From positions 1 through 31,999 of IMG/VR virus record IMGVR_UViG_3300030108_005585: 31,999 nt of DNA. One strand, written 5' to 3'. Below the pieces are notes generated by a model. It saw only the letters and a list, made by a program, of their open reading frames with translations, ran no database searches and was not told the DNA's origin. Shown in pieces: positions 15,377-31,999 of this stretch (positions are counted from its first letter, which is position 1; every line of letters starts with the position of its first letter). Made by a program: the position numbers and the translations under genes. This DNA is from a virus.

Positions 15377-18300
15377 TTATTTATCAATAAGACCTCTTAA
15401 TTCGTCAATTTGTTTTTGTTGATCTTTGACAGTTTCAATTAGCAATCCAATTAAACCACTATAATTGACAGATTTGACATCATCTCCACTTACAATTTCT
15501 GGTAATATTTTCTCTACATTCTGAGCTATGACACCCATGGATGGATCATTATCTTCCTTCCAATTAAATGTTACACCATCTATTTTTTTCACAGTCTCAA
15601 TTGGATTCTGAATTTGTTTTACATTTGTCTTTAATTTTAAATCTGAAAGTGAATCAAAATGAGTGGCAGCGACTGTTCCAGTCACTCTCATTTTATAAGT
15701 GGTCTGTGTATAATTACCACCAATGTTTACTTCACCAGTTGGTGTGATGCGAAGTCTTTGCTCTGGATCATCAGAATAACTAGCAGCAGATTTTGTCCAA
15801 AAAGTTATTGCTTTCCTAGCGTAAGTTCCACTACTAGTGAATTCAATTCTAGCAGAATCACCATCACCAATTAAACGTCTAGAAGCAATTCTTGGGTGTT
15901 CACCATTATCTGCGTGAAATAATAAATCAACTTCTACATTGGCAGCATTATTTGGACTTCCCAATCTGACAGCTGGATTTCTACCATCAATTAACTGATC
16001 ACCTTTAAATATTAAATCACCTCTACCTGCAAAACGAGCAGTACCAAATCCAACATTTAAAATATCACCATCTGGATCATTAATTCCAATACCAATATTA
16101 CCACCTGATGGATTTAAAAGAAGGTCATTATCACTAGAAAAATTATCTCCACCTGATCCCTGTTGCGATTGAATCGAATTTCGATAATTTTTAGTTCCAA
16201 ATTCTATTCTTCTGACTGCAGCTTGACCACCATCATTGTATAAACCACCTATATGTGCGTTAATTCCATCAGTTGCTGGTGATACAGTTTCAAGAGTACT
16301 ATCAGGATCACTAAGTCCGATTCCAACACTACCAGAAAAATAACCATCACCATTAGTCTTCACCCAGAAAGTATCAGTTAATGTTGCACCCTCTGCCGCT
16401 CTAAACGCAAATGTTTTCGCTGCATTGGTATAAGGATCCAACACCATGAAACCAGCGTTATTGGTATTATCAGTCCTGAAGTCAAAACTATTACGAACAA
16501 CAACACCACTTCTTAATGAAGTTGATTGAATATCAACATTAGTTTGATAAGATCTTCCACCAGTAGTAACGTTGTCATTAAAAGCACCTGCGACTATGGT
16601 GGTAATACCAGCAATTTGTAATCCACCATTATTATCAATACCTGACCTAGCAGTGATGATCCCAATAGAATCGATATTAGTTACATCATCATAAGTTAAA
16701 GTTCCTAATATTAATACATCTTGCTCAAATCGTGCATCATCCATAAAAGTAGATAAACCCGTTACTTTTAACTGTTGCGTTATTAAATTTTCTTGTGTTG
16801 TATTAACTTCTCCAATAAATTCGTTTGCATAAATCTTATCCCAAGGTGCACTTGAAGCACCTATATCTTGACCAGTTCCAGTTCTAAGTAAATTACCCGT
16901 AACATCTATACCATTAGCACTGGTAGCTAACCTTTTGGTACCAGTTGCATTCCAATATAATTCTGTAGCTCCATCATTTACACCACGAATCCAATTATTG
17001 CCATCGGTGTGCTCAAGAATTAAATTATCACTTGATTGAATATAAAGATGACTACCATCAGTGCTATTTTCGTGTTTAATGTAACTATGAGATTCGGTTG
17101 AATAAATTTCAAGATCTTTAGTATTACCACCATCAGCACCAAATACTGCCTTGGCACGAGTTACAAATTTTAAAGAACCAGCATCATGATCAAATCTGAT
17201 AGATGTTATTCCACTAGATCCATTAAAAAATACATCATTATTAAATGTGGAGATACCAGAAACTAATAAGTTAGATCCTATTCCAACTTCACCACTTAAT
17301 GTAGAAATACCTGAAACAAGTAGAGTATCAGTATCAGTTAAACCAGTAACCGTAACACCGACTCCAGATGTTTCGAATTTTCTACTACCATCATATCTCA
17401 ATTCAACACGGCCACCCTCGAAGAACCTTGCCATGTCTTCGGTTTCACCAGCATTTCTTATTGCAACTTCATTGGATAATATAACAAGATCTCCTGTTCC
17501 AGTATCTTGAATGTAACTATGTTGATCTGCCGAGGTTGGATCAAAAGGAGATTGTCCATGATATATTTGAAAATCCGCACTATTTCCAAATTTTAATTTT
17601 GCATTAGCAATAAACTTAAGAGAATCATCTGATTTATCAAATGTAATCGATGAAATTCCGCTTGTTCCATGAAACTCAACATCATCAGAGAAAGTTGAAA
17701 CACCAGATACATTTAAGTCTTGAGTAAAGGAAGAATTTGTAGTTACAATACCGACAGCTAACTTAACGGTATTTGAAGAGGTAACTGCTGCATTAGGATC
17801 TGTGGTTCCGATACCAACATTACCCAGTAAGTGTCCTCCTCTAGAGGACATAAGATAACCTATTTGAATTGCGGAATTTCCAGCTGCCTTATATGTTGAA
17901 TCAGAAACAAAGTTCCAAACACCACCTGTACCATATCCATATTGATTATCATCTTGATGCCAGATATGGTCTATATTATTACCACTTAGACCTTGACTCG
18001 GTGATCCAATGTTAGCAATTAATGCATTATTATTAAAATGAATATTTTTTGATGTTATTATTCCAGTTACAAATAAATTAGTAAGGATACCAACTGATTC
18101 ACTAAATGTTGAAACTCCTGATTGAACATGTATACCATTTCCAAATGTTGCGATACCAACGAAGGTTGATACTCCTGTCACTTTTAATTGATTAACTTCT
18201 AAATTTTCTTGCGTTGTTTGTATCTGACCTATAAATTCATCAGCATAAATTTTATTCCAACTAAAACTACCACTCTCTCCTATATTTCCACCCTTATGAG

Positions 18301-19987
18301 TTTTAGGTAATATGTTACCATTAACTTCAAGATTTGAACCAACTGTTAACGCTGCTCCAACTGTAGCAATGCCAGTTATCTTAACATTCCCTGATCCATC
18401 AATTCTAAATCCCTCAGTTCCACCCGCAGAGAACTTCATTAAATCATACGGATGAACATAATCAATTATCCCTGCGTCTGAACCATCATTAAATCGAATT
18501 GAACCAGTACTATTATTTGCAATCGTAATTCCTTTTTCTGACGATTGAGTTGTCTCTCCTACAATTAAATCATTAGCACCACTAAAGATATTTGAAACAT
18601 CATCTCCATTAATTTGAACTTTTCCATCATTATGAATACGTAATCTTTCTATCTGAGATACAGATGTTTTGAAAACAATCGCACCACCACCCTTTCCGTC
18701 AAGTATTAATTCCCCATAATTATTTTCAATAATACCGTTAGTGCTATTATGAAGTAAACGTAAATTATCTGTCTTTCCAATCGAAACAACAGCAGTATTT
18801 CCAACTCCAGATGCATATACATCATAAGCATCTAATTGACCATAAACACTAGCACCAACTCCAGAAGTTGCTAAACGTTTTACATTATCATAATATAATT
18901 CAACGGCTCCATTAGTAATAAATCTTCCTTTATATTCAGTAGCTTCTGCGTTCATAATATCGACATTGCCATTACCGATTAAACGCAAATTACCTGTTCC
19001 AGTATCAGATATATAACTATGATTGCCATTGTGATAAATTTCTAAATCCCCACTATCTCCAAACTTCGCCTTTACATTATCACCAAATTTTAATGAATCA
19101 TCCGATTTATCAAAGAAAATATTTTTTACATTGGCAGTCGTAAAGGTTACATCATCAGTAAAAGTTGTAAATCCTACAAAAGTTGTGACTCCTGTAAATC
19201 TTGAGTTACCAAGAACATCTAACAATCTATCAGGTATTGTGCTACCTATACCAACTCTATCATTATTAAAATCATAATAAAATTTATCAGCACCATCAAT
19301 AAGTCCAGTCGATCCATGAAACTGAATTTGTCCTATGGTTCCACCAGCACCTGCCTCAACACTATTCTGATTAGTCCACACAACTCCACCAGTTGCAGTT
19401 TTAACCAACAAATCTCCTGTGCTGCCAGGTTCATTATCCTCACCATATATTGTTTTATCTAATTTTACGTTACCAACCACATGTAAGTTTTGAGTTGGTG
19501 CTGTAGTCCCAATTCCAACCGATCCAATACCTGTTGTATTATCAAAAGTGAAATATGGTGATGTTGCAAACTCACCTGCATTATTAAATAAAACTCCATG
19601 ATCATCACCTGGTGGTGCAACAGTTACAGTCACAGCAGTGCCAGGATTTCCATTATCTTCAGTATATCCTGTAACAGTAATCGCAGCACCCTTAAAGTTA
19701 ATATCTGTTGTGCTGTTAATTCCAGAAGGAGGAACAACAGTTCCTTCTTCTCTCACAGTAATTGATCCAGGTTGTATACCACCAGTCAGAGGGATCCAAA
19801 ATCTTTGACCAGGATATTCTCTTAAAGATATGATTTGAAATTGTGATCCACCTGGTGGATTTGGTAACGGATTGGCAGGATCACCTAGGTTTGGTTCTGC
19901 TTGATCTAATCCAAGATATTGATATCTATCCGTTGTTAATGAACCTTGTGGAGTTCTTTTAACTCTACCACTTAAATACTTTGGCAT
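15377..19987 (-). CDS. Giant repeat-built fibre-like protein with C-terminal S74 chaperone
   Basis: This 1536-residue protein begins MPKYLSGRVKRTPQGSLTTD and has an N-terminal region to about residue 140 with QRFWIPLTGGIQPGSITVRE, possibly the attachment end. The central part is a string of beta repeats: 'IGIGTTAPTQNLHVVGN', 'VTTFVGFTTF', and three copies of a roughly 90-residue module with DLEIYHNGNHSYISDTGTG or close variants (about 18838-19090, 17340-17610 and 16895-17160). The last 89 residues form a peptidase-S74 domain starting SDLKLKTNV (Ser1448, Lys1453), with Lys in place of the usual Arg between them, ending in a coiled coil. Autocleavage before Ser1448 is expected. The start is one base after the stop of the 328-residue gene (TAATATG). 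A long trimeric tail fibre is inferred. Confidence 0.87.
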   Translation of the reverse strand: MPKYLSGRVKRTPQGSLTTDRYQYLGLDQAEPNLGDPANPLPNPPGGSQFQIISLREYPGQRFWIPLTGGIQPGSITVREEGTVVPPSGINSTTDINFKGAAITVTGYTEDNGNPGTAVTVTVAPPGDDHGVLFNNAGEFATSPYFTFDNTTGIGSVGIGTTAPTQNLHVVGNVKLDKTIYGEDNEPGSTGDLLVKTATGGVVWTNQNSVEAGAGGTIGQIQFHGSTGLIDGADKFYYDFNNDRVGIGSTIPDRLLDVLGNSRFTGVTTFVGFTTFTDDVTFTTANVKNIFFDKSDDSLKFGDNVKAKFGDSGDLEIYHNGNHSYISDTGTGNLRLIGNGNVDIMNAEATEYKGRFITNGAVELYYDNVKRLATSGVGASVYGQLDAYDVYASGVGNTAVVSIGKTDNLRLLHNSTNGIIENNYGELILDGKGGGAIVFKTSVSQIERLRIHNDGKVQINGDDVSNIFSGANDLIVGETTQSSEKGITIANNSTGSIRFNDGSDAGIIDYVHPYDLMKFSAGGTEGFRIDGSGNVKITGIATVGAALTVGSNLEVNGNILPKTHKGGNIGESGSFSWNKIYADEFIGQIQTTQENLEVNQLKVTGVSTFVGIATFGNGIHVQSGVSTFSESVGILTNLFVTGIITSKNIHFNNNALIANIGSPSQGLSGNNIDHIWHQDDNQYGYGTGGVWNFVSDSTYKAAGNSAIQIGYLMSSRGGHLLGNVGIGTTDPNAAVTSSNTVKLAVGIVTTNSSFTQDLNVSGVSTFSDDVEFHGTSGISSITFDKSDDSLKFIANAKLKFGNSADFQIYHGQSPFDPTSADQHSYIQDTGTGDLVILSNEVAIRNAGETEDMARFFEGGRVELRYDGSRKFETSGVGVTVTGLTDTDTLLVSGISTLSGEVGIGSNLLVSGISTFNNDVFFNGSSGITSIRFDHDAGSLKFVTRAKAVFGADGGNTKDLEIYSTESHSYIKHENSTDGSHLYIQSSDNLILEHTDGNNWIRGVNDGATELYWNATGTKRLATSANGIDVTGNLLRTGTGQDIGASSAPWDKIYANEFIGEVNTTQENLITQQLKVTGLSTFMDDARFEQDVLILGTLTYDDVTNIDSIGIITARSGIDNNGGLQIAGITTIVAGAFNDNVTTGGRSYQTNVDIQSTSLRSGVVVRNSFDFRTDNTNNAGFMVLDPYTNAAKTFAFRAAEGATLTDTFWVKTNGDGYFSGSVGIGLSDPDSTLETVSPATDGINAHIGGLYNDGGQAAVRRIEFGTKNYRNSIQSQQGSGGDNFSSDNDLLLNPSGGNIGIGINDPDGDILNVGFGTARFAGRGDLIFKGDQLIDGRNPAVRLGSPNNAANVEVDLLFHADNGEHPRIASRRLIGDGDSARIEFTSSGTYARKAITFWTKSAASYSDDPEQRLRITPTGEVNIGGNYTQTTYKMRVTGTVAATHFDSLSDLKLKTNVKQIQNPIETVKKIDGVTFNWKEDNDPSMGVIAQNVEKILPEIVSGDDVKSVNYSGLIGLLIETVKDQQKQIDELRGLIDK
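15378..15385 (-). promoter_or_regulatory. T4-type late promoter box, GATAAATA
   Basis: The minus strand shows GATAAATA, formed by the last codons and stop of the 1536-residue gene (GAT AAA TAA). It is 35 bases upstream of the ATG of the 1172-residue fibre gene, a sensible distance for a late promoter with a leader of roughly 28 bases. Confidence 0.5.
17324..17380 (-). repeat. Short shared tract between two fibre genes, copy in the 1536-residue gene
   Basis: These 57 bases match 23192-23248 with four differences and encode the GVGVTVTGLTDTDTL strand in both proteins. Confidence 0.8.
17420..17519 (-). repeat. Shared tract, copy in the 1536-residue gene
   Basis: Partner of 838-937, 16.6 kb away; encodes RNAGETEDMARFF in the corresponding module. 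Confidence 0.8.
17586..17685 (-). repeat. Shared tract between two fibre genes, copy in the 1536-residue gene
   Basis: These 100 bases match 24866-24965 with six differences by hand alignment, four of them C/T changes at wobble-like positions. It encodes the FDKSDDSLKF-type strand of the repeated module. Confidence 0.85.
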
Positions 19988-20976: not shown

Positions 20977-23900
20977 TTATCTCAATGCTAGTATTAATGG
21001 TGTTACTTCTGCTTGAAGTGATCTACTAAAATCTCTTCCAGAAATTGTAGAAGTTGTTTGGTTGATTTGTAAACCTTGACCTATATCAAAATTACCTTTT
21101 TGGTCTGTAGATGTGAATGGAATCTGTGCCCCATCAGTAGCTACGACTTCATTGGCCTTTATCGGAATTGCACCTTGTAGGGGTGTCGAAATATTTATAT
21201 CCGTTCCAGTACCAACATATTCAAAAGAGTGGGAGCTAGTTAGTATTCGACTGATTCTTTGTAAAGTAAATGGATCATCAGCAAACAATTCATAAGGAAC
21301 AAATTCATTAAATGTAATCGTTGTAATACCACTGACTGGAACTGGATTGGTTGCAGTTTCCACAGTGTAATATATCGGACTCATTATTGCTGTGGCAAGA
21401 CCAGTGTTTCCTTCAATATCAACAACTATATTTTGTGTTGGAAGATAATTTCTACCCTGTGCAACAACAGTAATTTCAGTTAAAACTCCAGAGGCACTTA
21501 CACTTGCGGTCGCCTCCGCAATAATTCCTTGAGGTCCTTTTGGTTCCTGTGTTCCGTCAAAATCTCTAATGAGCACGTTAGGAGGATCTATCGCACTGAA
21601 TCCACTTAAATTCTCACCAATAAGTTTTACAGATGATAACTGTTGGAGAGGTGATGTAATTCTCCCTCCACCAGGAGTGTCTGGATAATTATCCAAATCA
21701 ATTTTAAAATATAATGCCTGTCCATCAAAAGGTCTTCTAACATTATTAGATAAATCAGTAAGACCAACAGCAACAACTGTGTCTTGCTGTTCAGCATTTG
21801 TACTAGTGATGATATCACCCGCAGGATCAGTATTACTTACGATACCAGTAAATGTTGTTGACCCCAATCCAGCTGCAACTAATCCAAAGTTACCAAAAGA
21901 AGAGTTTGAGTTAGTTAAATCACATTGTGCACCACTAGATGCATAAATTCCAATATCAGTATTAATTGTGAATATAGAAACTAACTGTGCATATGCATCA
22001 TTAGTTAAAGAGACACCTATACCTGCTTCATTATATTGTGTAAAGGAGTCACATACCATTGATTTAAGATCTGCACCAATTGTCGATGCAGTCGCATCAT
22101 TTCCATCTACTCTCATGCCAACACTCGCTGTCATAAAATTAGTACAGTTTCTAATGTATGGTGATCTCCATCTTCCACTAGGACCTTCAGTCGCAGGTCC
22201 AGGTTCGGTGTATCCTGATACTGCAGAGTTAGCACCAGCTGGTGTCGGAAATGCAACACAAGCAGCACCTTGATGATTTACTCCAACATTAGATCCACCA
22301 AAGTTAAGATTCTCAACTAAACATCCTCGTCTTACATGAAAAACATCTTTGGTCGGGTTTTGAGATTGTATGATAACTAATCTTAAATCCTCACCTGTAA
22401 CTGTAACATCTGTTCTTAAACCGATTGGATTATTTTCAACATATACTCCTGGCCTTACTTTTATTGTATCAGTTTCGACAGCGATAGTCGCTGCTGCACC
22501 TATGGTTGCTTTGGCATCACCTTCAAGTAATCCACTATTACTATCAGACCCACTCTTAGAAACCCATATGGTTCTTTTTGTTTGAACACCTGATGGTCTC
22601 CAAGAAACACCAGTTCCAACTGATGCCAAACGATAATCATACTCAACATATTGTCCTGAAGAGTGAAGAACACCACCACTTGCAGATACAAAATTATGTG
22701 TGACTCCAGCGGCAAGTCCACCATCTCCAACATCAACTTTAAAAGTGTTCGTCGTAACATTTGAAATTATTAACCATTTACCACTATTTGGATCTTTCGA
22801 TCTTGGATATGACTGACTAATTGTTACTCCCTTATAATTACAACTCAAAGTTATTGTGCCATCAGGTATTTGTATAGAATCACCATTTGCAAAACCATGA
22901 TTAGCGATGGTTATTTCCATTATACCCGTTGTTGAATTATAATCAGCATCTGTTATCGCATTTGAAAGATTCTCGGCGACTGTTGTACCAACACTATCGT
23001 TTCGATCTTTTATATGTAACCCTAAGTTAAGTGTTTTTGCAATACCTACTTCTTCTTTAAATGTAGATATTCCTATAAACGTAGAAACACCAACTACATT
23101 TAAACTACCAATACCAGCATTTCCCTGCACATCTAAATCTGCATTTGCGTCTATGTTTCCATCAAATGTAGACGTTGCTGATACATTTAAAGTATCGGTA
23201 TCAGTTAAACCAGTAACTGTAACACCGACTCCAGTTGTTTCAAATTTTTTCACATTATCTGTGAATAATGTCACTCCATATCCTACCTGACTTATTAGAT
23301 AAGTTTCACCACTGACACTTTTAAGTTGTTGACTATCAGAAATTATATTTAATTTACCTGTGGAATTATTAATTGTACCATCACTACCATCATGAAATAT
23401 TTGTAATTGTGCACTATCACCAAAAGTTATTTTTGCATTACTACCAAACTCAAAAGCATCATCAGACTTATCAAAAATTATATTGTAATCGTCACCAATA
23501 AATTGAACATCGTTATTAAATGTTGTTACACCTGTGATATTTACATCATCTAATTCTGTGTGTTGATTGACATTTATACCTGCGTTAAAAGTAGATCCTG
23601 CACTTACAAGTAATGAGTCGGAGGATGCATCACCAATATTTGTATTACCTTTTATAATAACGTTTTGATTAAATGTAGCTAATTCATCAACAGTCAGTGC
23701 ATCTAATGATGTATCTCCATCCACGTCAAGTGACGCATCAAAATCTACACCGTTAGCTACTCTAAATTCACCATCAATCTCCGAATTACCAGTGACTTTA
23801 AATTTCTTAGTTGTTTGAGTATAATCACCACCAATGTTTACTTCACCAGTTGCTGTAATGCGTAATCTTTCATTATTACCATTCGTCTTGAATATCATTG

Positions 23901-25377
23901 AGTCACTTGAGTGACTATATTGTAATCGACCAGATGAACCACTAGATTCATCTCCAAAGTAAATTGTTTGAGGATTTGTATCACCTGATGGTGATAATAA
24001 TTGAATTGTCGCAGCGTTGTTCGACTCTACAACTAACTCACCAATACCTGAAGTTTTAGACCCACAACCAGATCCCCTGTAAATATGTAAGACATGATTG
24101 CCACTTCCATTCAAGTTAGTTCCAATTCCAACATTTGTCATCCTATAGATTGAAGCGTTAGCTCCAGATCCATTATATCCCCACAAATCATTCGTGAATA
24201 CTGTTGATAAACCAGAACCTTGTGGAGTAGAAGTATCAGCAGCAGTCGCCACAAGTGTATCTGTACCAATACCAAGACTATTTGATTGTACGAAGTTTAT
24301 AGTGGTAAAGGTTTGTGCAAGTCCTGCTGACGGAACTTCTTGTCCCTCATTTTGTAATGTTATTCCACCTCCTTCACCTGGTGCGAGTAGTGTCCATCTT
24401 ATACCAGTACCAGTTCTTTTCAAATAATAATTACTTTGACCAGGTGAACCTTCACTATCATAAATGTTTCTTGAAATAGAAATACTACCATCAACCGCAA
24501 GTCTTAAAGTGCCCTCACCAGCATCATTTAAATTATTTGGATTAACAGGAACTATATGTGTAGTTCCGATTCCGACTCTAGCGAGTCTGGAACCATCATT
24601 ATCAACTACAAACTCTCCAAAAACTGAAGCACCAACTCCAGTAGTTTGAAATTTTTTACCTGTAGTACCTTCACCTTGCCAAAAAAGTGAAGCTCCACCA
24701 TCACTGACAAATTTAGCAAGACTTTGGTTACCAGAGACACCAGGAGTATCATTTTCGATTGTTACCTTACTATTAGTTTGAATCTTAATATCTCCCGTGC
24801 CATTCTCTTTAATATAACTGTGATCCCCATCATGATATATCTCAAGGTCTGGTGTTGTCTCATCACCAAATTTTAATTTTGCATTATCAATAAATTTAAG
24901 AGAATTATCTGATTTATCAAATGTAATCGATGAAATTCCGTTTGTTCCATGAAATTCTACATCATCTTTAAAGGTTGATATTCCCGTGACTAAAAGATTT
25001 TTTAACTCTAAATCTCTTATCTTTGCTTTTCCAAATATGTCTAATAACTCTGTTGGTTGTGTGCTTCCGATTCCAACTTTGCCAGGATTTAACTCTGAAT
25101 CTGCAACCATAACAGTTCCACCAGATCCAACCTGCAGTCTGTCCCTAATTTCTAAATCTGGAAATGATAAGGAATCTTGGAAATTAACAGTATCTGTAAA
25201 TGTGGTTTCACCAGTTATTGTTAACTGTGGATTACCTAAAATTAATGGAGTAGTTAATTTTGTTAGTGTTAATTCCTGATCAGGTACTAATAACGTTCCT
25301 TTAATATCAACGTCTTTAAGGAAAGTTACCTTTTCATTAAATTGTGCCTCGTTTCCAGTAACAGATATATTTGACAT
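20977..25377 (-). CDS. Giant virion protein: fibre repeats plus pectin-lyase-like beta helix
   Basis: This 1466-residue protein begins MSNISVTGNEAQFNEKVTF. Residues about 80-880 carry GIGSTQP/GIGTT repeats and two DLEIYHDGDHSYI-type modules (about 24610-24880 and 23215-23440), interleaved with 'VTGVTTFNNDV' strands. Around residues 815-925 there is an HGF domain with SYPRSKDP. Residues about 930-1190 look pectin-lyase-like: RTIWVSKSGSDSNSGL, IKVRPGVYVENNPI, RRGCLVENLNFGG, then QLVSIFTINTDIG and CDLTNSNSSFGNFG. The C-terminus (SSHSFEYVGTGT ... TDQKGNFDIGQGL ... LILALR) resembles a segment inside the 1889-residue protein. There is no S74 domain. The ATG is preceded by GGAGG inside the last codons of the needle gene. 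The position directly after hub and needle suggests a baseplate-associated protein linking the tail tip to fibres; the role is inferred. Confidence 0.85.
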   Translation of the reverse strand: MSNISVTGNEAQFNEKVTFLKDVDIKGTLLVPDQELTLTKLTTPLILGNPQLTITGETTFTDTVNFQDSLSFPDLEIRDRLQVGSGGTVMVADSELNPGKVGIGSTQPTELLDIFGKAKIRDLELKNLLVTGISTFKDDVEFHGTNGISSITFDKSDNSLKFIDNAKLKFGDETTPDLEIYHDGDHSYIKENGTGDIKIQTNSKVTIENDTPGVSGNQSLAKFVSDGGASLFWQGEGTTGKKFQTTGVGASVFGEFVVDNDGSRLARVGIGTTHIVPVNPNNLNDAGEGTLRLAVDGSISISRNIYDSEGSPGQSNYYLKRTGTGIRWTLLAPGEGGGITLQNEGQEVPSAGLAQTFTTINFVQSNSLGIGTDTLVATAADTSTPQGSGLSTVFTNDLWGYNGSGANASIYRMTNVGIGTNLNGSGNHVLHIYRGSGCGSKTSGIGELVVESNNAATIQLLSPSGDTNPQTIYFGDESSGSSGRLQYSHSSDSMIFKTNGNNERLRITATGEVNIGGDYTQTTKKFKVTGNSEIDGEFRVANGVDFDASLDVDGDTSLDALTVDELATFNQNVIIKGNTNIGDASSDSLLVSAGSTFNAGINVNQHTELDDVNITGVTTFNNDVQFIGDDYNIIFDKSDDAFEFGSNAKITFGDSAQLQIFHDGSDGTINNSTGKLNIISDSQQLKSVSGETYLISQVGYGVTLFTDNVKKFETTGVGVTVTGLTDTDTLNVSATSTFDGNIDANADLDVQGNAGIGSLNVVGVSTFIGISTFKEEVGIAKTLNLGLHIKDRNDSVGTTVAENLSNAITDADYNSTTGIMEITIANHGFANGDSIQIPDGTITLSCNYKGVTISQSYPRSKDPNSGKWLIISNVTTNTFKVDVGDGGLAAGVTHNFVSASGGVLHSSGQYVEYDYRLASVGTGVSWRPSGVQTKRTIWVSKSGSDSNSGLLEGDAKATIGAAATIAVETDTIKVRPGVYVENNPIGLRTDVTVTGEDLRLVIIQSQNPTKDVFHVRRGCLVENLNFGGSNVGVNHQGAACVAFPTPAGANSAVSGYTEPGPATEGPSGRWRSPYIRNCTNFMTASVGMRVDGNDATASTIGADLKSMVCDSFTQYNEAGIGVSLTNDAYAQLVSIFTINTDIGIYASSGAQCDLTNSNSSFGNFGLVAAGLGSTTFTGIVSNTDPAGDIITSTNAEQQDTVVAVGLTDLSNNVRRPFDGQALYFKIDLDNYPDTPGGGRITSPLQQLSSVKLIGENLSGFSAIDPPNVLIRDFDGTQEPKGPQGIIAEATASVSASGVLTEITVVAQGRNYLPTQNIVVDIEGNTGLATAIMSPIYYTVETATNPVPVSGITTITFNEFVPYELFADDPFTLQRISRILTSSHSFEYVGTGTDINISTPLQGAIPIKANEVVATDGAQIPFTSTDQKGNFDIGQGLQINQTTSTISGRDFSRSLQAEVTPLILALR
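23192..23248 (-). repeat. Short shared tract between two fibre genes, copy in the 1466-residue gene
   Basis: Partner of 17324-17380 in the neighbouring giant gene. Confidence 0.8.
24866..24965 (-). repeat. Shared tract between two fibre genes, copy in the 1466-residue gene
   Basis: Partner of 17586-17685 in a different gene 7.3 kb away; about 94 of 100 bases agree. Confidence 0.85.
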
Positions 25378-25380
25378 ATT

Positions 25381-25977
25381 CTATCCTCCAAGATTTGGAA
25401 GATCTCCAGTGCCAGAGACCACTGGTTTTGATATAAATTTATCACCTGGTGGAGGATTACTAAGATAATCTTCACCAACTTTACTACCTTTGAAGGCTCT
25501 TTGTAAAAAACCACCTACAGTTTTTTCTATCAAATTTCCAAGAAGACCACTCGCATCTACCTTCAAACCTTTTAAAAGAATTCTTGATGCAGCGTTTAAT
25601 GTAATATTTCTTCCAGCTTTCAAATTTATATCTTCATCTGCTTGTATCACAACGTTCCCTCCAGATATTTTTACCTGACCATTTCCCATCACAGTAATCG
25701 TAATGTCTCCCTCTACTGAACTAATTTTAACTGAAGTGTCACTTGGACTATTTTTAGATCCTGCAACAACTTCAATCATTCTTTCATTATGAACTCGAAA
25801 TACCCCAGACTCACTTAATGCACAAAATTGTTTATCTTTATTGTCGGTAACTGCATATTGTAACCATGTATTTGCACCATCAGCACCCATCTGAGGATTA
25901 TTGACATCAAGTCGAAACTTAGGTCCTCTACTATCAATTACTCTTTGTTCCCAATTTTGATTTTGTTTTTCCGCCAT
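25381..25977 (-). CDS. Separate beta-helical needle protein of the tail spike
   Basis: This 198-residue protein starts MAEKQNQNWEQRVIDSRGPK. An N-terminal part with WLQYAVTDNKDKQFCALSES and GVFRVHNERMIEVVAG leads to a regular run around residues 85-140: VKISSVEGDITITVMGNGQ, VKISGGNVVIQADEDINLKA, GRNITLNAASRILLKG. The alternating 'xVxIxxxGxVxIxAxxxIxLxA' spacing is that of the triple-stranded beta helix at the C-terminus of T4 gp5 and of VgrG-type spikes. In T4 this needle is the C-terminus of gp5, but here it is a separate gene. Its ATG overlaps the stop of the OB-fold hub gene by one base (TAATG), with AGGAGG six bases before it, so the two are translationally coupled. The C-terminal 40 residues are Pro/Gly-rich. 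A membrane-piercing spike or its shaft is inferred; a gpV-like role is also possible. Confidence 0.78.
   Translation of the reverse strand: MAEKQNQNWEQRVIDSRGPKFRLDVNNPQMGADGANTWLQYAVTDNKDKQFCALSESGVFRVHNERMIEVVAGSKNSPSDTSVKISSVEGDITITVMGNGQVKISGGNVVIQADEDINLKAGRNITLNAASRILLKGLKVDASGLLGNLIEKTVGGFLQRAFKGSKVGEDYLSNPPPGDKFISKPVVSGTGDLPNLGG
25385..25389 (-). promoter_or_regulatory. Ribosome binding site GGAGG inside the needle gene
   Basis: GGAGG sits within the final Gly-Gly codons of the needle gene and 7 bases before the ATG at 25377, so it fixes the start of the 1466-residue protein and couples it to the needle. Confidence 0.65.
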
Positions 25978-28262
25978 TAGTATCCTCCTCCATATCCACC
26001 ACCACCTGAAGGTGGAGCACTTGGTGGTGTTGGTGGTGGAGTGCTCGGTGGTGTTGGTGGTGGTGTATTATTTGTCATTGTTGATGTAGGAGTTATAATT
26101 GGTTGATCGGGGGTAGACTCTTGAGTTATGGTAGAGGCAACACTAACCCTTGTTGGAGTAAAACTTTGTTCTGGTGTATCATATATGATCTCATGTGGTG
26201 TTGATGTATGTGCTATACCTACCATTTTCACACCTTTTGTTGGATGTATATGATAAGGACCGTAATAAGGTTTACCATTTACATATCCCACCAAATTATT
26301 AGTTTCAGGTCCCACACAATCAACAACCTGAATAATTTCTCCTTGTGGAGTTAGTGGTAGTCTACCTATAATTGGTTTGATTAATGCACCCACACCAGTG
26401 GATGAAGACACAACAATTCTAGGTATTTCAGTAATCCTAACATTATTTATCGGTGTTGCTGAAATAATTTTTCCATTTTCGATTGTTAGGTTATATCCAT
26501 CTGCAAACGCATCAACATATCCCTCTCCACCATCTGTTACTTTAGTGCCAACAACACCTACAGGAATTTCATTAGAATTTATAACCTCATCAGTATTTGC
26601 ACTCGGATAATTTTCACCATCAGAAATGATATCAACACCCGTAATCTGTCCATATGTTGATGAATTTGGATCCCTATCAATTATAGCTCTACCAACTGCA
26701 CCATAACCTTGACTACATGGATCTTCAAAACTTACAACAGGGGGAGTTGTAAAATATGTTGATCCTGGATCTGTGATTTCTACACCTATAATACTTGCAG
26801 TTTGACTAACATCTGCAGTTACATCAGATAATCCCTCTGTGTTGTCTACAATCCCACCCAATATTATTTTACCAAATCCACCAATACCATCACCACCAAA
26901 GAAACTGACAGTTGGAGGTCCGCAAAAAGTTTTAGATGCACAATCTGGTTTACTTATAGGACTGTTAGGATTAGCAATATTCATATTTTCCAATACATTA
27001 TCATAAGCATCTCGCAAATCAAATGTTCTAGCAGGACCATATCCAAGAGTAAATTTCTTAACTTGACCCACACATTTTCCATCACTCTGATTACAATCTA
27101 TAAGTGCATTAATAGATTTAAATGTATCAGAAGAACTTCTAAGAAAATCCTGAACTTTAAAAGCTTTTGGTATAATCTCACTCAATCCAGCTAGTGGTGC
27201 ATCAAGTGCATCAGATATATCATTTGTAATTCCATTCAATAATGATCCAACAAGTTGTTCTGTAATACAAAATCCAGTATCTACTACCTCAAAAACTGCT
27301 TGCTCGATCATTCCTCTAATCGTTGCTCCCAAACCATCAACAATTTTACCTGGCAAACAATTAAGATCACCTTGAAGAGCTGCTACTTTTGGTATTTGAG
27401 CTTTTTGTGCTTCAACACCAGCTAGAGATGCAAGAGCAGCATTTTGAGTAGCTGCAAATACAGTGTTATAAGTTTTATTATATAATGATTCTAAACCACC
27501 TTGTATTTCAGGAATCATCTTTGAATATAAAGATTCCATCATTGTTGAAACCGCATTATTTGACAATGATTGTATTTTCTGAGTTACATATGCGACATCA
27601 CCTAAAAAATCTGTACTCTCACTTGCGACTGACAATAAATTATCTAAACTCGCAGATACTTTTCCTACAAAATTATCGGCACAGGCATCAGCAGGTATTT
27701 CTGCCTTTCCAAAAGTGGATGATGCTGATATTTTATCCTCTCCTGCATTTACTTTTCTTGTGACAGGAGATTCTTGTGCATCACCCCTATTTTCACCAGA
27801 CTCATTTGGTTTCAGTGTTCCATTTGGTGGTGGTATTTTATCACTATATCCAGTAAATGGTACAAATCCAATAGATTCAGAAGGTAAATCTTGTGAAACG
27901 TCATTTGTTCTTGAAAAAGCACCCATTATTATAGGTTGTTGTGCTGTTTCACCATCAAGAAAAAATCCAATTACTACATCACCTGGTCTTAAAGCAACAG
28001 ATGCTGCAAAGTTTGCTCCACCCGTGCCTGATGTAGAAGGAAGCATGACATTTGCCCAAGGTAAATCTTTATCCTCCAACTCTGCTTTTGAAAAAGGATG
28101 ATATCCCATGATACGAACTTTAAGACGATTTCCCCAAGACTTAACATCAGGTTTGTATGCAAGTTGCTCACCTTGAACATTTGCAGGTGCAACTTGACCT
28201 ACCCACCAACGAAAACCATCTTTCCCTACAAAATTAGTTTTTAGTAATGCTTCATCTATCAT
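25977..28262 (-). CDS. 5: gp5-like baseplate hub protein, OB fold without visible lysozyme domain
   Basis: This 761-residue protein has an N-terminal domain (residues about 10-125) with FRWWVGQVAP, RLKVRIMGYHPFSK, LPWANVMLPSTSG, RPGDVVIGFFLDGETAQQPI and IMGAF, the OB-fold layout of T4 gp5 that contacts the gp27 hub. I find no lysozyme-like stretch after it. Residues about 190-400 are helical with few motifs. Residues about 490-620 contain repeats like GVEITDPGSTY and GAVGRAII ... GVDIISDGENYP. Near 667-690 is YGPYHIHPTKG with an HxH pair (His671, His673) and AHTSTPH. The last 29 residues are proline-rich ending GGGGYGGGY. Nine cysteines are present. Its ATG overlaps the stop of the gp27-like gene (TAATG) with AGGAG upstream. 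Function as central hub and spike base is well supported; digestion of cell wall by this protein is not. Confidence 0.85.
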   Translation of the reverse strand: MIDEALLKTNFVGKDGFRWWVGQVAPANVQGEQLAYKPDVKSWGNRLKVRIMGYHPFSKAELEDKDLPWANVMLPSTSGTGGANFAASVALRPGDVVIGFFLDGETAQQPIIMGAFSRTNDVSQDLPSESIGFVPFTGYSDKIPPPNGTLKPNESGENRGDAQESPVTRKVNAGEDKISASSTFGKAEIPADACADNFVGKVSASLDNLLSVASESTDFLGDVAYVTQKIQSLSNNAVSTMMESLYSKMIPEIQGGLESLYNKTYNTVFAATQNAALASLAGVEAQKAQIPKVAALQGDLNCLPGKIVDGLGATIRGMIEQAVFEVVDTGFCITEQLVGSLLNGITNDISDALDAPLAGLSEIIPKAFKVQDFLRSSSDTFKSINALIDCNQSDGKCVGQVKKFTLGYGPARTFDLRDAYDNVLENMNIANPNSPISKPDCASKTFCGPPTVSFFGGDGIGGFGKIILGGIVDNTEGLSDVTADVSQTASIIGVEITDPGSTYFTTPPVVSFEDPCSQGYGAVGRAIIDRDPNSSTYGQITGVDIISDGENYPSANTDEVINSNEIPVGVVGTKVTDGGEGYVDAFADGYNLTIENGKIISATPINNVRITEIPRIVVSSSTGVGALIKPIIGRLPLTPQGEIIQVVDCVGPETNNLVGYVNGKPYYGPYHIHPTKGVKMVGIAHTSTPHEIIYDTPEQSFTPTRVSVASTITQESTPDQPIITPTSTMTNNTPPPTPPSTPPPTPPSAPPSGGGGYGGGY
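25980..26066 (-). repeat. Low-complexity Pro/Gly-coding tract at the 3' end of the hub gene
   Basis: The plus strand reads as GGTGGTGTTGGTGGTGGA-like units repeated at least twice. On the coding strand it gives TPPPTPPSTPPPTPPSAPPS followed by GGGGYGGGY. Such tracts are prone to slippage. Confidence 0.75.
25984..25989 (-). promoter_or_regulatory. Ribosome binding site AGGAGG in the Gly/Tyr tail codons
   Basis: AGGAGG is part of the Gly codons of the GGGGYGGGY tail of the hub gene and lies 6 bases before the needle ATG at 25977. The peptide tail and the binding site share the same bases. Confidence 0.7.
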
Positions 28263-29626
28263 TAAATTTCTCCTGCAAACGTATCTCTAACTAATGTCAT
28301 TGAAGTGAATGATCTTTTCGATTCAAAATGATGGCACAGTTCTTTTATCATATATTTACCACTTGTTTGTCTATCAATTTCATTTTTATCTTCTCTAGAT
28401 ATTTTAGGAAACTCACAAGTAATTATATCACCAGCTCGCAAATCAGTGTTACAAGGAATCATCATACTCACACTCTGTGTCATTAAAAGATTATATCTAA
28501 CAATATTTTGACCTTGATATTGACTTGAAGGATAATTATCAGCAGTAGATACACCCACTGTTGCACCAATGTCTACGATTTGAGAGACGGCTCTTGTTGG
28601 AATTTGATCTAACGTCTGATTTGAATCATCAGATATTTTTGGTAATTCTAAATCTCCTCCAAGGTTTGAAATTTTCTTATCTTTTCCCGTATTTTTTTCC
28701 CCATAACTAAAAAAATCTTGAGTAAAAGCATGTGTCAGAGGGTTAAATGCCAATCTAACAAATGAATAAGTTCCCATTCTTAAATTTTCAATCAGGTTTT
28801 GATTTTTATCAATATTGTATTTTAAAATGTTAAAATCATTATTTTTAGTCGTTGAGCTCTCATTTACATCTGTGTATCTATATGTTGCTTTTGATCCTTT
28901 TTTAATAAGTGAGTCAATTGATGAAAACTGAAAACCATCTTGAGTTTGAAAAAATACAAATCCAGCCGTTGAATTTTTTGAAACATCAGGAACTGATTTA
29001 GATGCTAATGTAATTAATGTTGAGAAAGGTTTTCTCAAATTACCGATAAAATCATAAGATCCCCTTGTACTTTCGACTATATCATCAAGTTTTGATTCAT
29101 CAACATTAAATCCGATTAATGGATCTGTCAGAATTTTTCTCACAGTTCCACTAATTGGTCCATTATATCTTTTCATAACTCTAGAGGTTTCATTTGTTAT
29201 TGCCTCTCTTGACACCAAATTTAGTAAAAAACTCTCTCTTTGCGTTTCCTGAAGAACTTGAGTAATACTTGATACAAACAAATATTTTCTAGGATCAGTT
29301 GAAAAATCAAGTCCAGTTTTTTCTTTACCATTGTTATTTGCTTTTCCTTGATCTAAAATCTTCATCACCAATCTCTCACCACCTCTTAAGGGAAGTCCAT
29401 TATAAATTGATTGTTTAGCACCATCAGTTTTCTTTGAATCTTGGGGATCTTTTGGTGAAATACTATCACCTGTGTTTATTACTCTTACCTTTGCAGTTAT
29501 TGTAGGTGAAAGAATGTCCTCATAATAATCAACACTAACAACACCTGATCTTAAATCAACAGTTCTCTCCTGATCATTTGATTCAAGTGTAAGTTCTTCA
29601 AAACTAGATGCTTCTGATGCTGACAT
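28262..29626 (-). CDS. 27: gp27-like baseplate hub subunit
   Basis: This 454-residue protein starts MSASEASSFEELTLESNDQE. An early beta domain (VDLRSGVVSVDYYEDILSPT, then ITAKVRVINTG and RGGERLVMKILDQG) is followed by RKYLFVSSITQVLQETQRES and FLLNLVSREAITNETSRV. After that come GPISGTVRKILTD, PFSTLITLASKSV and GFVFFQTQDGFQFSSIDSLI. This order matches hub proteins of the T4 gp27 and gpD class, where the trimer links the tail tube to the spike. T4 gp27 is 391 residues, so this one is somewhat longer. Its stop overlaps the ATG of the gp5-like gene by one base, and in T4 gp27 and gp5 are direct partners. The start lies three bases after the stop of the upstream gene, with no clear Shine-Dalgarno sequence. 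Family placement is likely but not certain by eye. Confidence 0.75.
   Translation of the reverse strand: MSASEASSFEELTLESNDQERTVDLRSGVVSVDYYEDILSPTITAKVRVINTGDSISPKDPQDSKKTDGAKQSIYNGLPLRGGERLVMKILDQGKANNNGKEKTGLDFSTDPRKYLFVSSITQVLQETQRESFLLNLVSREAITNETSRVMKRYNGPISGTVRKILTDPLIGFNVDESKLDDIVESTRGSYDFIGNLRKPFSTLITLASKSVPDVSKNSTAGFVFFQTQDGFQFSSIDSLIKKGSKATYRYTDVNESSTTKNNDFNILKYNIDKNQNLIENLRMGTYSFVRLAFNPLTHAFTQDFFSYGEKNTGKDKKISNLGGDLELPKISDDSNQTLDQIPTRAVSQIVDIGATVGVSTADNYPSSQYQGQNIVRYNLLMTQSVSMMIPCNTDLRAGDIITCEFPKISREDKNEIDRQTSGKYMIKELCHHFESKRSFTSMTLVRDTFAGEI
28270..28274 (-). promoter_or_regulatory. Ribosome binding site AGGAG before the gp5-like gene
   Basis: AGGAG lies 7 bases before the ATG at 28262, inside the last codons of the gp27-like gene, and supports this start in the TAATG overlap. 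Confidence 0.65.
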
Positions 29627-29629
29627 ATG

Positions 29630-30826
29630 TTAAAATAGAGATAAGGCGAATTGATCTTTAAGACTATTATTTTTTTGAACTATTGTTCTAGTTCTACTTT
29701 TAGTTCTCATTCCCATTTGTGTTTGAGATTGACCATTTTTGTTTCCAACAATCATCACCATATTTTTTGATTTTCTTTCTGGTGTTATCGTGGTGGTTTT
29801 TATTTCTTTCTTAGGTGCACTAATATTTAACTTCTTTTCAACTGGTGGTGTTTCTGATTTTTTTCTATCAAGTGCTTTTTCATACACGTCAAGTTTGTCT
29901 TGTTCGAACTCTATCTTTCTTTCATTTGCTCCTTTTTCCTCCATTTTATTAATTTTAGATTTAGTAGAGTCAACTTTTGATTCCAATTCATCAACTGTGT
30001 AATTGGTATCAACGTCAGTGAGAGTGAGTCTAATATATTTTTTATCATCTACCTCTGATGTCAACTCTTTATTCTCATCACCAACAATATCGATTCCAGT
30101 TCCCTCCTTCTTGATTGTATCCAGAGTCTTATTAAATTCATCAGATTTACCAGACAATGTTTCTTTCACATCAGATACACTTGATTTCTGTTCATTCTTC
30201 TTTTCTTCTTTTTTCATGTCTTCTGGTTTCTTATTTTTCATTCCAAGAAAACTTTTAACACCATCTAGAAGTTTATCTTTTATATTGTTAAATGAATCTT
30301 TTATTTTTCCAAACGCATTCTTAATTGCATCACCCATATCTGAGAACTCTAAATTTGATATAAAATTAAGAGCATTACCAATTACCTTACCAGTAGATTT
30401 AAAAAACCCTACTACTCCATCAAAAAATGCCTTAAACTTATCAACAATATCACGAATAACTTTAATAACTTTTTTAATAAAATTAATAATTTGAGGTAAT
30501 TTATTCAATACAAATCCAATTAAAAGTGTCTGAATAATTGACATTAATCTTCCTACAGGTGTTTTTTCAGACCCCATTGATTTTTCACCTTCTCCCTGTT
30601 CTTGAAGTTTTTGTTGTTCTAAAAGAGCTTCTTTCTCTTTTCTTTTTTTATCTTCTCTCCTCCTTCTCTTCATTCTTATTCTCATCACTCTTATTTTCTT
30701 TTTTATTTTAATATTTTCCAGTATAGATTTTGAAAGATTATTACTGCTTTTGATGACACCCTTCATGGCGCCAGTAGATTTTGATGCTATCTTTGATCCT
30801 AAGTTTAAAACTGGTGATTCTGCCAT
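29630..30826 (-). CDS. Basic, hydrophobic-helix virion protein upstream of hub genes
   Basis: This 398-residue protein starts MAESPVLNLGSKIASKSTGA. Residues about 38-75 form an extremely basic helix (IKIKKKIRVMRIRMKRRRRE, then DKKRKEKEALLEQQKLQEQG). This is followed by hydrophobic/amphipathic stretches around 90-165 (LMSIIQTLLIGFVLNKLPQI, VGFFKSTGKVIGNALNFIS) and a Lys/Glu-rich low-complexity middle. The C-terminus (about 355-398) has TRTIVQKNNSLKDQFALSLF. A sequence of this kind, beside a gp27-like hub gene, is reminiscent of T4-like virion proteins that fill the tail, such as the tape measure or a hub accessory protein. I cannot assign it to a T4 gene by eye. It lies one base after the stop of the 30828-31999 gene and three bases before the gp27-like gene, so it belongs to the same unit. 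Confidence 0.7.
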   Translation of the reverse strand: MAESPVLNLGSKIASKSTGAMKGVIKSSNNLSKSILENIKIKKKIRVMRIRMKRRRREDKKRKEKEALLEQQKLQEQGEGEKSMGSEKTPVGRLMSIIQTLLIGFVLNKLPQIINFIKKVIKVIRDIVDKFKAFFDGVVGFFKSTGKVIGNALNFISNLEFSDMGDAIKNAFGKIKDSFNNIKDKLLDGVKSFLGMKNKKPEDMKKEEKKNEQKSSVSDVKETLSGKSDEFNKTLDTIKKEGTGIDIVGDENKELTSEVDDKKYIRLTLTDVDTNYTVDELESKVDSTKSKINKMEEKGANERKIEFEQDKLDVYEKALDRKKSETPPVEKKLNISAPKKEIKTTTITPERKSKNMVMIVGNKNGQSQTQMGMRTKSRTRTIVQKNNSLKDQFALSLF

Positions 30827-30827
30827 G

Positions 30828-31999
30828 TTACACTAAAATATTATATTGAGTTTTTGCATATAATGTAAAATTATTATCAAAATTTGAGGAGGATATATTT
30901 GGTAATGATGTAGCTATTTCTTTATCTCCAAGTGTCGAAACTCCCCCACCACCAACATTTGTGGTTGCATCTACAATATTTGGAGGTGCTTCTTGAAGAG
31001 TGGAAACATCTTGTTTTTTAGGAACTGAATTTATAGTGGGTTCATATTTAGAACTCTTTAAGTTTAAATTACTTGATTTATATTTAATCTTACTAGGATC
31101 TACACCTGGAATATTACTGAGAACAGCGTTAATCTCCTCTTTAGTGTCATATTTTGATGGATCTTTCTCAATCTCAGACTTAACCATATCATACATTCCA
31201 AATGGAATAAGATTCTTATTATCCTCTAATACTACAAATGGATCAACTTTATCATTTTTTGTAGTATTTTCATTTACTACACTTGTGTTACCACTCCCAT
31301 CTCCTTTAGGTTTATCATATCCTATCGTTCTACCTCTACTGTTTTTGATAGGTTTACCTCTTGTTTTTTCCAGTTCTAATTTTTTTTCTTTGTTTTTATT
31401 AAATAATTTTTTTAAACCAAGAAAAGCTCCTACACCACCAGCTACAGCCAATGCGATTAATCCAGCAGGACTAACTAAAAATGCCAATATCGCACCACCA
31501 ATAGCAATAATACCAGTAACGACTCCTGTTATGATGGCTGGTAATGCCAATAAACCACCTTTTAATATTAAAAATATACCACCAACCACCGCAATTGATT
31601 TTATTAAAGTATTTCTCATATTCTTAAACGTCTCATCGTCACCAGACATTTTTGCCTGAATCATTTTAATTGCCTTATTTGTCACAAATCCCGCAAAAAG
31701 TGCCATGAAAGCTTTGCCTAAGTTACCTAAGACACCATTTACAGTTTTACCTACTGCCTCTACTGGTGCAAGTAGAGTTTTTTTTACTGATTTACCTACA
31801 CGTTCCAGAAGTCCTTCTTTTTTATCAGCTTTATCACTCTCATCTCCTAATTGTTGTTGTCTATCTTCCTCTCTCTGTGAATCTTGTGCGTTTTCTGTTT
31901 GTGTTGATATTAGTTGAGCAATTCTATTTGTGTTTAATATTACAACTTTTTTTAATAAATTTATTTCTCTTGAATTTCTTTTTACTTGTCTAGCAGTGC
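30828..31999 (-). CDS. Virion protein with Gly/Ala-rich hydrophobic helices, N-terminus cut by window edge
   Basis: An internal ATG at 31706 would give 292 residues, but the frame stays open upstream to the window edge. It reads through ARQVKRNSREINLLKKVVIL, QLISTQTENAQDSQREEDRQ and KKEGLLERVGKSVKKTLLAP before that methionine, so I annotate a gene continuing beyond base 31999. The middle holds two to three hydrophobic stretches (SIAVVGGIFLILKGG, ALPAIITGVVTGIIAIGGAI, LAFLVSPAGLIALAVAGGVG). The rest is Lys/Asn/Ser-rich, and it ends NNFTLYAKTQYNILV. Such a pattern suggests a tail-interior or membrane-interacting virion protein, possibly a tape-measure or hub-associated protein. The stop is one base before the next ATG (TAACATG). 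Function is inferred from composition and location only. Confidence 0.72.
   Translation of the reverse strand, partial: TARQVKRNSREINLLKKVVILNTNRIAQLISTQTENAQDSQREEDRQQQLGDESDKADKKEGLLERVGKSVKKTLLAPVEAVGKTVNGVLGNLGKAFMALFAGFVTNKAIKMIQAKMSGDDETFKNMRNTLIKSIAVVGGIFLILKGGLLALPAIITGVVTGIIAIGGAILAFLVSPAGLIALAVAGGVGAFLGLKKLFNKNKEKKLELEKTRGKPIKNSRGRTIGYDKPKGDGSGNTSVVNENTTKNDKVDPFVVLEDNKNLIPFGMYDMVKSEIEKDPSKYDTKEEINAVLSNIPGVDPSKIKYKSSNLNLKSSKYEPTINSVPKKQDVSTLQEAPPNIVDATTNVGGGGVSTLGDKEIATSLPNISSSNFDNNFTLYAKTQYNILV

Follow-up and report, generated by a model that had tools for sequence, protein, structure and literature searches.

Two adjacent minus-strand genes of a marine virus, encoding an OB-fold hub protein and a separate needle, very probably supply the two chains of a central spike of the T4/VgrG type in which the needle is stacked in trans below the OB fold. 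The stretch of DNA analysed (the window) comprises 31,999 of the 36,658 bases of IMG/VR virus record IMGVR_UViG_3300030108_005585, and its source is a member of the marine, T4-like cyanophage group. An initial annotation, made from the letters alone, had drawn attention to this pair of genes; its sequence observation is confirmed and its interpretation is partly supported. The arrangement is not special to this phage: it is an established cyanophage state, usual throughout one large section of these phages. The parts of the two proteins are:

25381–25977, minus strand: the needle, 198 residues, PHROG 3363, with an N-terminal beta domain (~13–64), a VgrG-like triple-beta-helix segment (~65–142) and a low-confidence C-terminal part
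25552–25785, minus strand: needle residues 65–142, with the octad-type repeat GGNVVIQA DEDINLKA GRNITLNA ASRILLKG, an extended chain in the model
25977–28262, minus strand: the hub, 761 residues, PHROG 1922, cyanophage gp5 family, without lysozyme
27885–28220, minus strand: hub OB fold, residues 15–126, whose best solved matches are the T4 gp5 OB
27165–27680, minus strand: hub helical bundle, residues 195–366, with helices of 54 and 36 residues, occupying the place of the T4 gp5 lysozyme
26361–26912, minus strand: hub beta-rich region, residues 451–634, no named relative found
26193–26291, minus strand: optional C-terminal module of the hub, residues 658–690, conserved motif YYGPYHIHP..GVKMVG.AHT..PH
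25980–26060, minus strand: Pro-rich hub tail ending GGGGYGGGY, whose Gly codons GGAGGAGGA double as a ribosome-binding-like site for the needle

Both open reading frames (ORFs) were verified at these positions, where they had first been annotated. The main evidence that they form one spike is that, in five single-chain spikes, the stretches matched by hub OB and needle lie side by side, the needle second: VgrG 9jg9 (residues 362–454 and 455–617, respectively), the PVC spike 6j0m (360–446 and 449–537), 9gtr from a Streptomyces contractile injection system (CIS; 377–456 and 471–641), the phage P1 spike 9vzk_q (3–82 and 97–209) and T4 gp5 1wth (6–110 and 386–512, with the lysozyme lying between them in T4). 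The two genes therefore appear to be one spike cut in two. Because all Z-scores are moderate (4 to 8), the case rests on the agreement of two independent match lists.

The hub matches PHROG 1922, 'baseplate hub subunit and tail lysozyme', at E 8e-119, and its sole Pfam match is Gp5_OB (E 2.7e-4, just under the cut-off for this protein), a family (PF06714) that is matched by 31 of 47 hub homologues. The top solved-structure matches of residues 15–126 are T4 gp5 OB folds (2z6b, Z 8.2; 1k28 and 1wth, Z 8.0; 26–29% identity), a Foldseek comparison with the T4 gp5 OB gave E 9e-4, and the hub profile matches the Klebsiella phage spike 9f4a (E 8e-8). An AlphaFold model built from 47 sequences of the hub's own family places the OB fold at 18–116, followed by a disordered linker (117–190), long helices (198–386), the beta-rich region (451–634), a small module (655–700) and a disordered Pro/Gly tail.

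The initial annotation saw no lysozyme in this protein, and that observation holds: no lysozyme motif is present in the hub sequence, and none of the 47 homologues matched a glycosidase or peptidase Pfam family at E<=0.1, while an Acinetobacter T4-type gp5 used as positive control in the same test returned Phage_lysozyme at E 2.5e-8. The 'tail lysozyme' label thus corresponds to no muralytic domain in the hub. Since the long helices are unlike lysozyme, being too long for it, and their fold matches only generic bundles, the view that the central 500 residues lack a T4 counterpart is right and a hidden lysozyme in residues 130–480 is unsupported; a glycosidase, which in this region would have told against the initial reading, was not found there. 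Mx-stalk and BAR-like bundles matched to residues 195–366 (Z ~6) were dismissed as a common arrangement, and an ATP synthase b' match of the helices was set aside as spurious.

It is also conceivable, though quite unlikely, that the hub is itself an active wall enzyme, with either the beta region or the C-terminal His module acting as an unrecognised hydrolase. The beta region is well predicted (pLDDT, the predicted local distance difference test, is 73–91 across most of 490–640) and conserved, with many invariant glycines and cysteines, and searches with residues 451–634 returned no known fold; the His-rich motif YHIHP..AHT..PH might bind metal. However, this proposal has to face the lack of muralytic Pfam matches and of a lysozyme motif described above, the absence of the His module from 13 of 64 distinct hubs, and the presence of the enzyme in another gene in several relatives. 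The longer pattern YYGPYHIHP..GVKMVG.AHT..PH..IY is present in the other 51 of the 64, and the hubs that lack it mostly stop right behind a conserved VIDC/VVDC; in addition, PHROG 32965, another virion protein, matches window hub residues 598–715.

The needle matches PHROG 3363, a family of unknown function, at E 2e-51. Its family profile matches the VgrG needle in PDB entry 8gra (E 1.9e-4), and DUF2345, the VgrG needle family, was matched in 31 of 46 family members. The monomer model has a five-strand N-terminal domain (13–64) followed by an extended chain from residue 65 to ~142 (pLDDT 72–88) with no intrachain pairing, so that this segment, as modelled, has the look of a single strand taken from a triple helix. 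VIA-align ranks VgrG, PVC, CIS, P1 and P2 spikes first (Z 4.9–7.0), with the monomer fitting VgrG/CIS needles at Z up to 7.0 and the trimer being the state we infer. These monomer fits give no sign of a non-helical fold, the outcome that would have spoken against the initial reading of this gene. Matches of the needle to Sarcoglycan_1 and rRNA N-glycosidase, and the appearance of LolA, OspA and EspG in the fold lists for its N-terminal domain, were set aside as spurious.

Several results weigh against reading the pair as a split spike. The needle model is of moderate confidence (mean pLDDT 71, predicted template modelling score (pTM) 0.49) and every one of its Z-scores is below 8; Foldseek alone, used with this model, found no match at E<=0.001; and beyond its domains the hub is poorly modelled (mean pLDDT 64, pTM 0.42). 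The octad periodicity of this single needle is not significant by itself: 3.7% of shuffled sequences attain its hydrophobic pairing at lag 8, and 30% attain its score if the lag is left free. The octad-type repeat that was initially reported is thus weak in this sequence and finds its support in the family, where 8 is the best lag in 44 of 63 distinct members.

A different assignment would make the 198-residue protein some other beta-helical part, such as a short tail-fibre base or a piece of an adhesin, and the hub C-terminal region the tip of the spike. Tail-fibre genes (20977–25377) do follow the needle gene directly, fibres often contain beta-helical repeats, a fragment of the T4 gp34 fibre fits the needle at Z 3.8, and the hub C-terminal module is conserved and contains an H-x-H motif that might be a metal ligand. 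Iron-binding H-x-H tips occur in P2-type spikes. Nevertheless, the profile and fold matches of the needle are led by VgrG, CIS, P1 and P2 spikes and are aligned exactly behind their OB fold; the needle adjoins the hub at every complete locus, whereas fibre genes vary; and each of the 13 hubs without the H-x-H module still has a needle. We regard this assignment as very unlikely. None of the window proteins scanned matched a PAAR tip protein. Elsewhere in the window, 1864–7533, 7606–9579 and 15377–19987 hold long tail-fibre genes whose products have a Peptidase_S74 (endosialidase chaperone) domain at the C-terminus, one of them with a collar domain too.

The order gp27-hub-needle is found in 85 of 85 complete loci, counted where the hub is complete and followed by 250 nt or more, so the gene order is not due to chance. 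Cultured phages with this layout include P-SSM2, P-TIM68, S-SSM7, S-PRM1, ACG-2014f, S-SRM01, S-SCSM1 and S-SKS1, the last being the nearest cultured relative of the window virus. In S-PM2, Syn1 and S-CAM1 the needle gene is separate as well, though longer and annotated as a baseplate lysozyme; the S-PM2-type needle matches that of the window in hidden Markov model (HMM) searches (1.8e-10) and by hhalign (1.4e-7). The S-PM2 'base plate lysozyme' (locus L105, 8928–10022; relatives in 35 records) has no Pfam domain, and for a separate needle the name is misleading.

A second large group (S-RIM2, S-BM1, Syn19, ACG-2014a/d and others) has one longer gp5 chain, the C-terminal half of which, in S-BM1, is matched by 281 records. 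The N-terminal OB of this S-BM1-type gp5 is clearly homologous to the hub OB (hhalign 2.9e-29), but these proteins were rejected as fused relatives proving the pairing, as their C-terminal halves match the window needle only at hhalign 0.017 (reverse HMM ~1e-5, 88 sequences); with that homology unproven, they are treated here as gp5 proteins of one chain whose needle is unproven. In a gp27 tree, the cyanophages with this single chain fall into one well-supported group (99/100). Two changes of state suffice on this tree, and a single one might do if KVP40, a very long branch whose placement is not trusted, is discounted.

That an assembly artefact, a frameshift or stop breaking one fused gene, produced the split has next to no probability. 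Such an origin could draw on the single longer gp5 of the other cyanophage clade, with its different C-terminal half, and on the broken ORFs that exist in related records, yet it is refuted by conservation, as the same break, with a start codon, a ribosome-binding-like site and a conserved needle N-terminus, recurs in many independent contigs and isolates. The broken ORFs are two: in a 210-kb relative, a stop after 235 codons, either a sequencing error or a real break, interrupts the hub frame (L038, 5001–7293; L006, 2709–5001), which close relatives have in intact copies, and in the deposited S-SKS1 record (L095, 4680–6004) gp27 is present as two ORFs and the upstream gene is annotated with a late start, possibly through a sequence error.

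The junction itself was described correctly at the outset: on the coding strand it reads GGAGGAGGATACTAATGGCG, a 1-nt TAATG overlap, and the gp27/hub junction is a TAATG as well. The bases GGAGGAGGA upstream of the needle start are Gly codons for the hub's last residues, and the GGAGG-rich codons of the hub end GGGYGGGY (25977–26006) also resemble a ribosome-binding site for the needle. Relatives in which hub and needle are separated by 22–28 nt mostly retain the Gly/Tyr tail, so the tail seems to be selected as protein as well. Between gp27 and gp5, CP12, tRNA or other small genes lie in several cyanophages (L098, L102, L112, L113–L121), while the pair is tight in the window.

The two-gene layout has been in public genomes for two decades, with its genes labelled 'tail lysozyme' or 'hypothetical', and a literature search found no paper describing a split spike; a table of S-CREM2 virion proteins enters the spike-region proteins separately, without comment. 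On the minus strand of the window the genes run in the order T4-GC 13-position gene, T4-GC 14-position gene, gp27-like gene, hub, needle and tail fibres. Those upstream of the hub are:

28262–29626, minus strand: gp27-like hub protein, 454 residues, PHROG 350, T4-GC 15, directly before the hub with a TAATG junction
29630–30826, minus strand: gene before gp27 (T4-GC 14 position), 398 residues; in some relatives the homologous gene has muralytic domains, with none here
30828–31999, minus strand: T4-GC 13-position gene, truncated by the end of the window (425 residues, reaching 32105 of the full record), without a Pfam domain

A 239-residue ORF at 32280–32999 of the record, outside the window, corresponds by position to the gp26 of relatives.

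The initial annotation proposed that the wall-degrading step might be supplied elsewhere. This is borne out for some relatives, with an enzyme encoded in the gene before gp27, and not for the window's version, in which Pfam scans of the 398-residue protein found no enzyme domain. The gene varies among relatives from 359 to 1131 residues, and scans of 57 of them found M23 in 4, Phage_lysozyme2 in 2, SLT_3 in 2, SLT in 2, Phage_lysozyme in 1 and VanY in 1 (with overlaps). Carriers include ACG-2014f (Phage_lysozyme and M23), S-SRM01 (M23), S-SCSM1 (VanY), S-SKS1 (Phage_lysozyme2) and the loci L054 (Phage_lysozyme2) and L070 (SLT_3 and M23); in DSL-LC03, SLT and VanY are carried by the two genes that precede gp27. 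In S-SCSM1 virions, both enzymes encoded before gp27 were detected by mass spectrometry (PMC9602691). The window's 398-residue protein matches the N-terminal third of the enzyme-bearing ACG-2014f protein (PHROG 3572 positions 14–192, E 1e-5). These observations suggest that the tail muralytic enzyme, where present, would form one domain in the product of the gene that immediately precedes gp27, and that the window lineage may have lost this domain or have one too diverged to see. A point against this supply is that about 49 of the 57 scanned genes carry no recognised enzyme, so it is seen in a minority only. In the 210-kb relative (G001), no match was found anywhere for the families with working controls (Phage_lysozyme, M23, SLT, VanY, Phage_lysozyme2, M15_3, Amidase_2 and M15_4); GH19 also gave no match in the control genomes, so that search carries no weight for G001.

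Taken as a two-chain spike, the hub and needle would work as follows. The hub OB trimer would sit below the gp27-like trimer, and three needle chains would form a triple-stranded beta helix directly beneath the OB ring, probably joined to it in trans, with coupled translation at the TAATG junction providing the two proteins in matched amounts. The needle domain trimerises T4 gp5, and a split removes the covalent linkage during folding, so the hub would have to trimerise in another way: via gp27, via its own OB or helices, or by binding to a pre-formed needle trimer. The other 630 hub residues, a helical bundle and a beta region without enzyme signature, would hang from the linker beside the needle, where T4 gp5 has its lysozyme. 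Sheath contraction would push the needle through the outer membrane, after which it may be shed. That these 630 residues are a non-enzymatic replacement of the lysozyme, and that this lineage crosses the thin periplasmic wall without a tail muralytic enzyme, is a tentative and rather doubtful extension of this scheme.

The window's spike is thus a typical example of an arrangement that is common but undescribed, and its recognition is a useful annotation correction. In a large and ecologically important section of the marine T4-like phages, the spike is very probably made from two genes; the name 'tail lysozyme' on hundreds of cyanophage gp5 genes is unsupported by a lysozyme domain in those tested; the conserved 'hypothetical' gene behind gp5 is very probably the needle; and where a wall enzyme is visible, the gene before gp27 carries it as one of five kinds of exchangeable domain. 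The way in which cyanophages get through the Prochlorococcus and Synechococcus wall can thereby be put to the test.

Among known systems, the closest counterpart is the P-SSM2-type cyanophage gp5 cassette (PHROG 1922 plus PHROG 3363; T4-GC 16 and 17), which has the same order, gp26-gp51-GC13-GC14-gp27-hub-needle, and the same domains; P-SSM2 and S-SKS1 have their needle annotated as hypothetical. The window's genes match both family profiles and stand adjacent after gp27, as in these phages. The differences are that identity is only 48% (S-SKS1) down to ~25% and that the S-SKS1 gene before gp27 has Phage_lysozyme2, which the window's gene lacks.

The window resembles T4 gp5 in having a gp5-type OB after an adjacent gp27-like protein and, as predicted, a beta-helical needle with a body beside it; it differs in that T4 uses one gene, with a lysozyme between OB and needle, where the window has two ORFs and a helical plus beta body, and its OB and needle are not made as one chain that is then cut. 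The cut in T4 gp5 lies between Ser351 and Ala352, and the mature T4 device is (gp27-gp5*-gp5C)3 (PMC3004832). As the mature T4 needle is itself a separate chain after cleavage, the contrast first drawn with a single-chain T4 gp5 was overstated. The cyanophage gene break falls in the linker corresponding to the T4 cut, with the needle starting at about T4 residue 386, and therefore the split would directly yield what T4 makes by proteolysis; the break would be the counterpart of the maturation cut, and the mature complex would again be (gp27-body-needle)3.

Other spikes share single traits with the window. The KVP40 gp5 is also without lysozyme, as its GenBank record already remarks, but joins OB and needle (Gp5_C, Gp5_trimer_C) in one 421-residue chain. 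Stenotrophomonas phage Moby has an OB followed by a long helical stretch replacing the lysozyme (hub profile over 13–323, E 1e-22), but its needle is fused in the same 553-residue chain (Gp5_trimer_C, 469–532). Lysozyme loss and helical replacement therefore occur with and without a split. In Methylophilales phage Melnitz-2 (L109, 6001–9044), OB and needle lie in two genes, and the OB gene has a weak VanY-type match (22.4 bits, below the cut-off), a split in which the OB part apparently retains an enzyme. In Anabaena phage A-1(L), wall-degrading activities reside on a baseplate protein other than the spike (PMC10966104), although its enzymes (peptidase and endoglucanase) are in the hub protein, its spike OB and beta part are one chain, and it belongs to an unrelated phage group. 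Finally, the spikes of type VI secretion (VgrG), of PVC and other CIS and of P1 (9vzk_q) combine the OB and needle on whose adjacent parts the window proteins align, but do so in one chain, which in VgrG and PVC also includes a gp27-like part; what VgrG fuses is encoded in the window by three separate genes.

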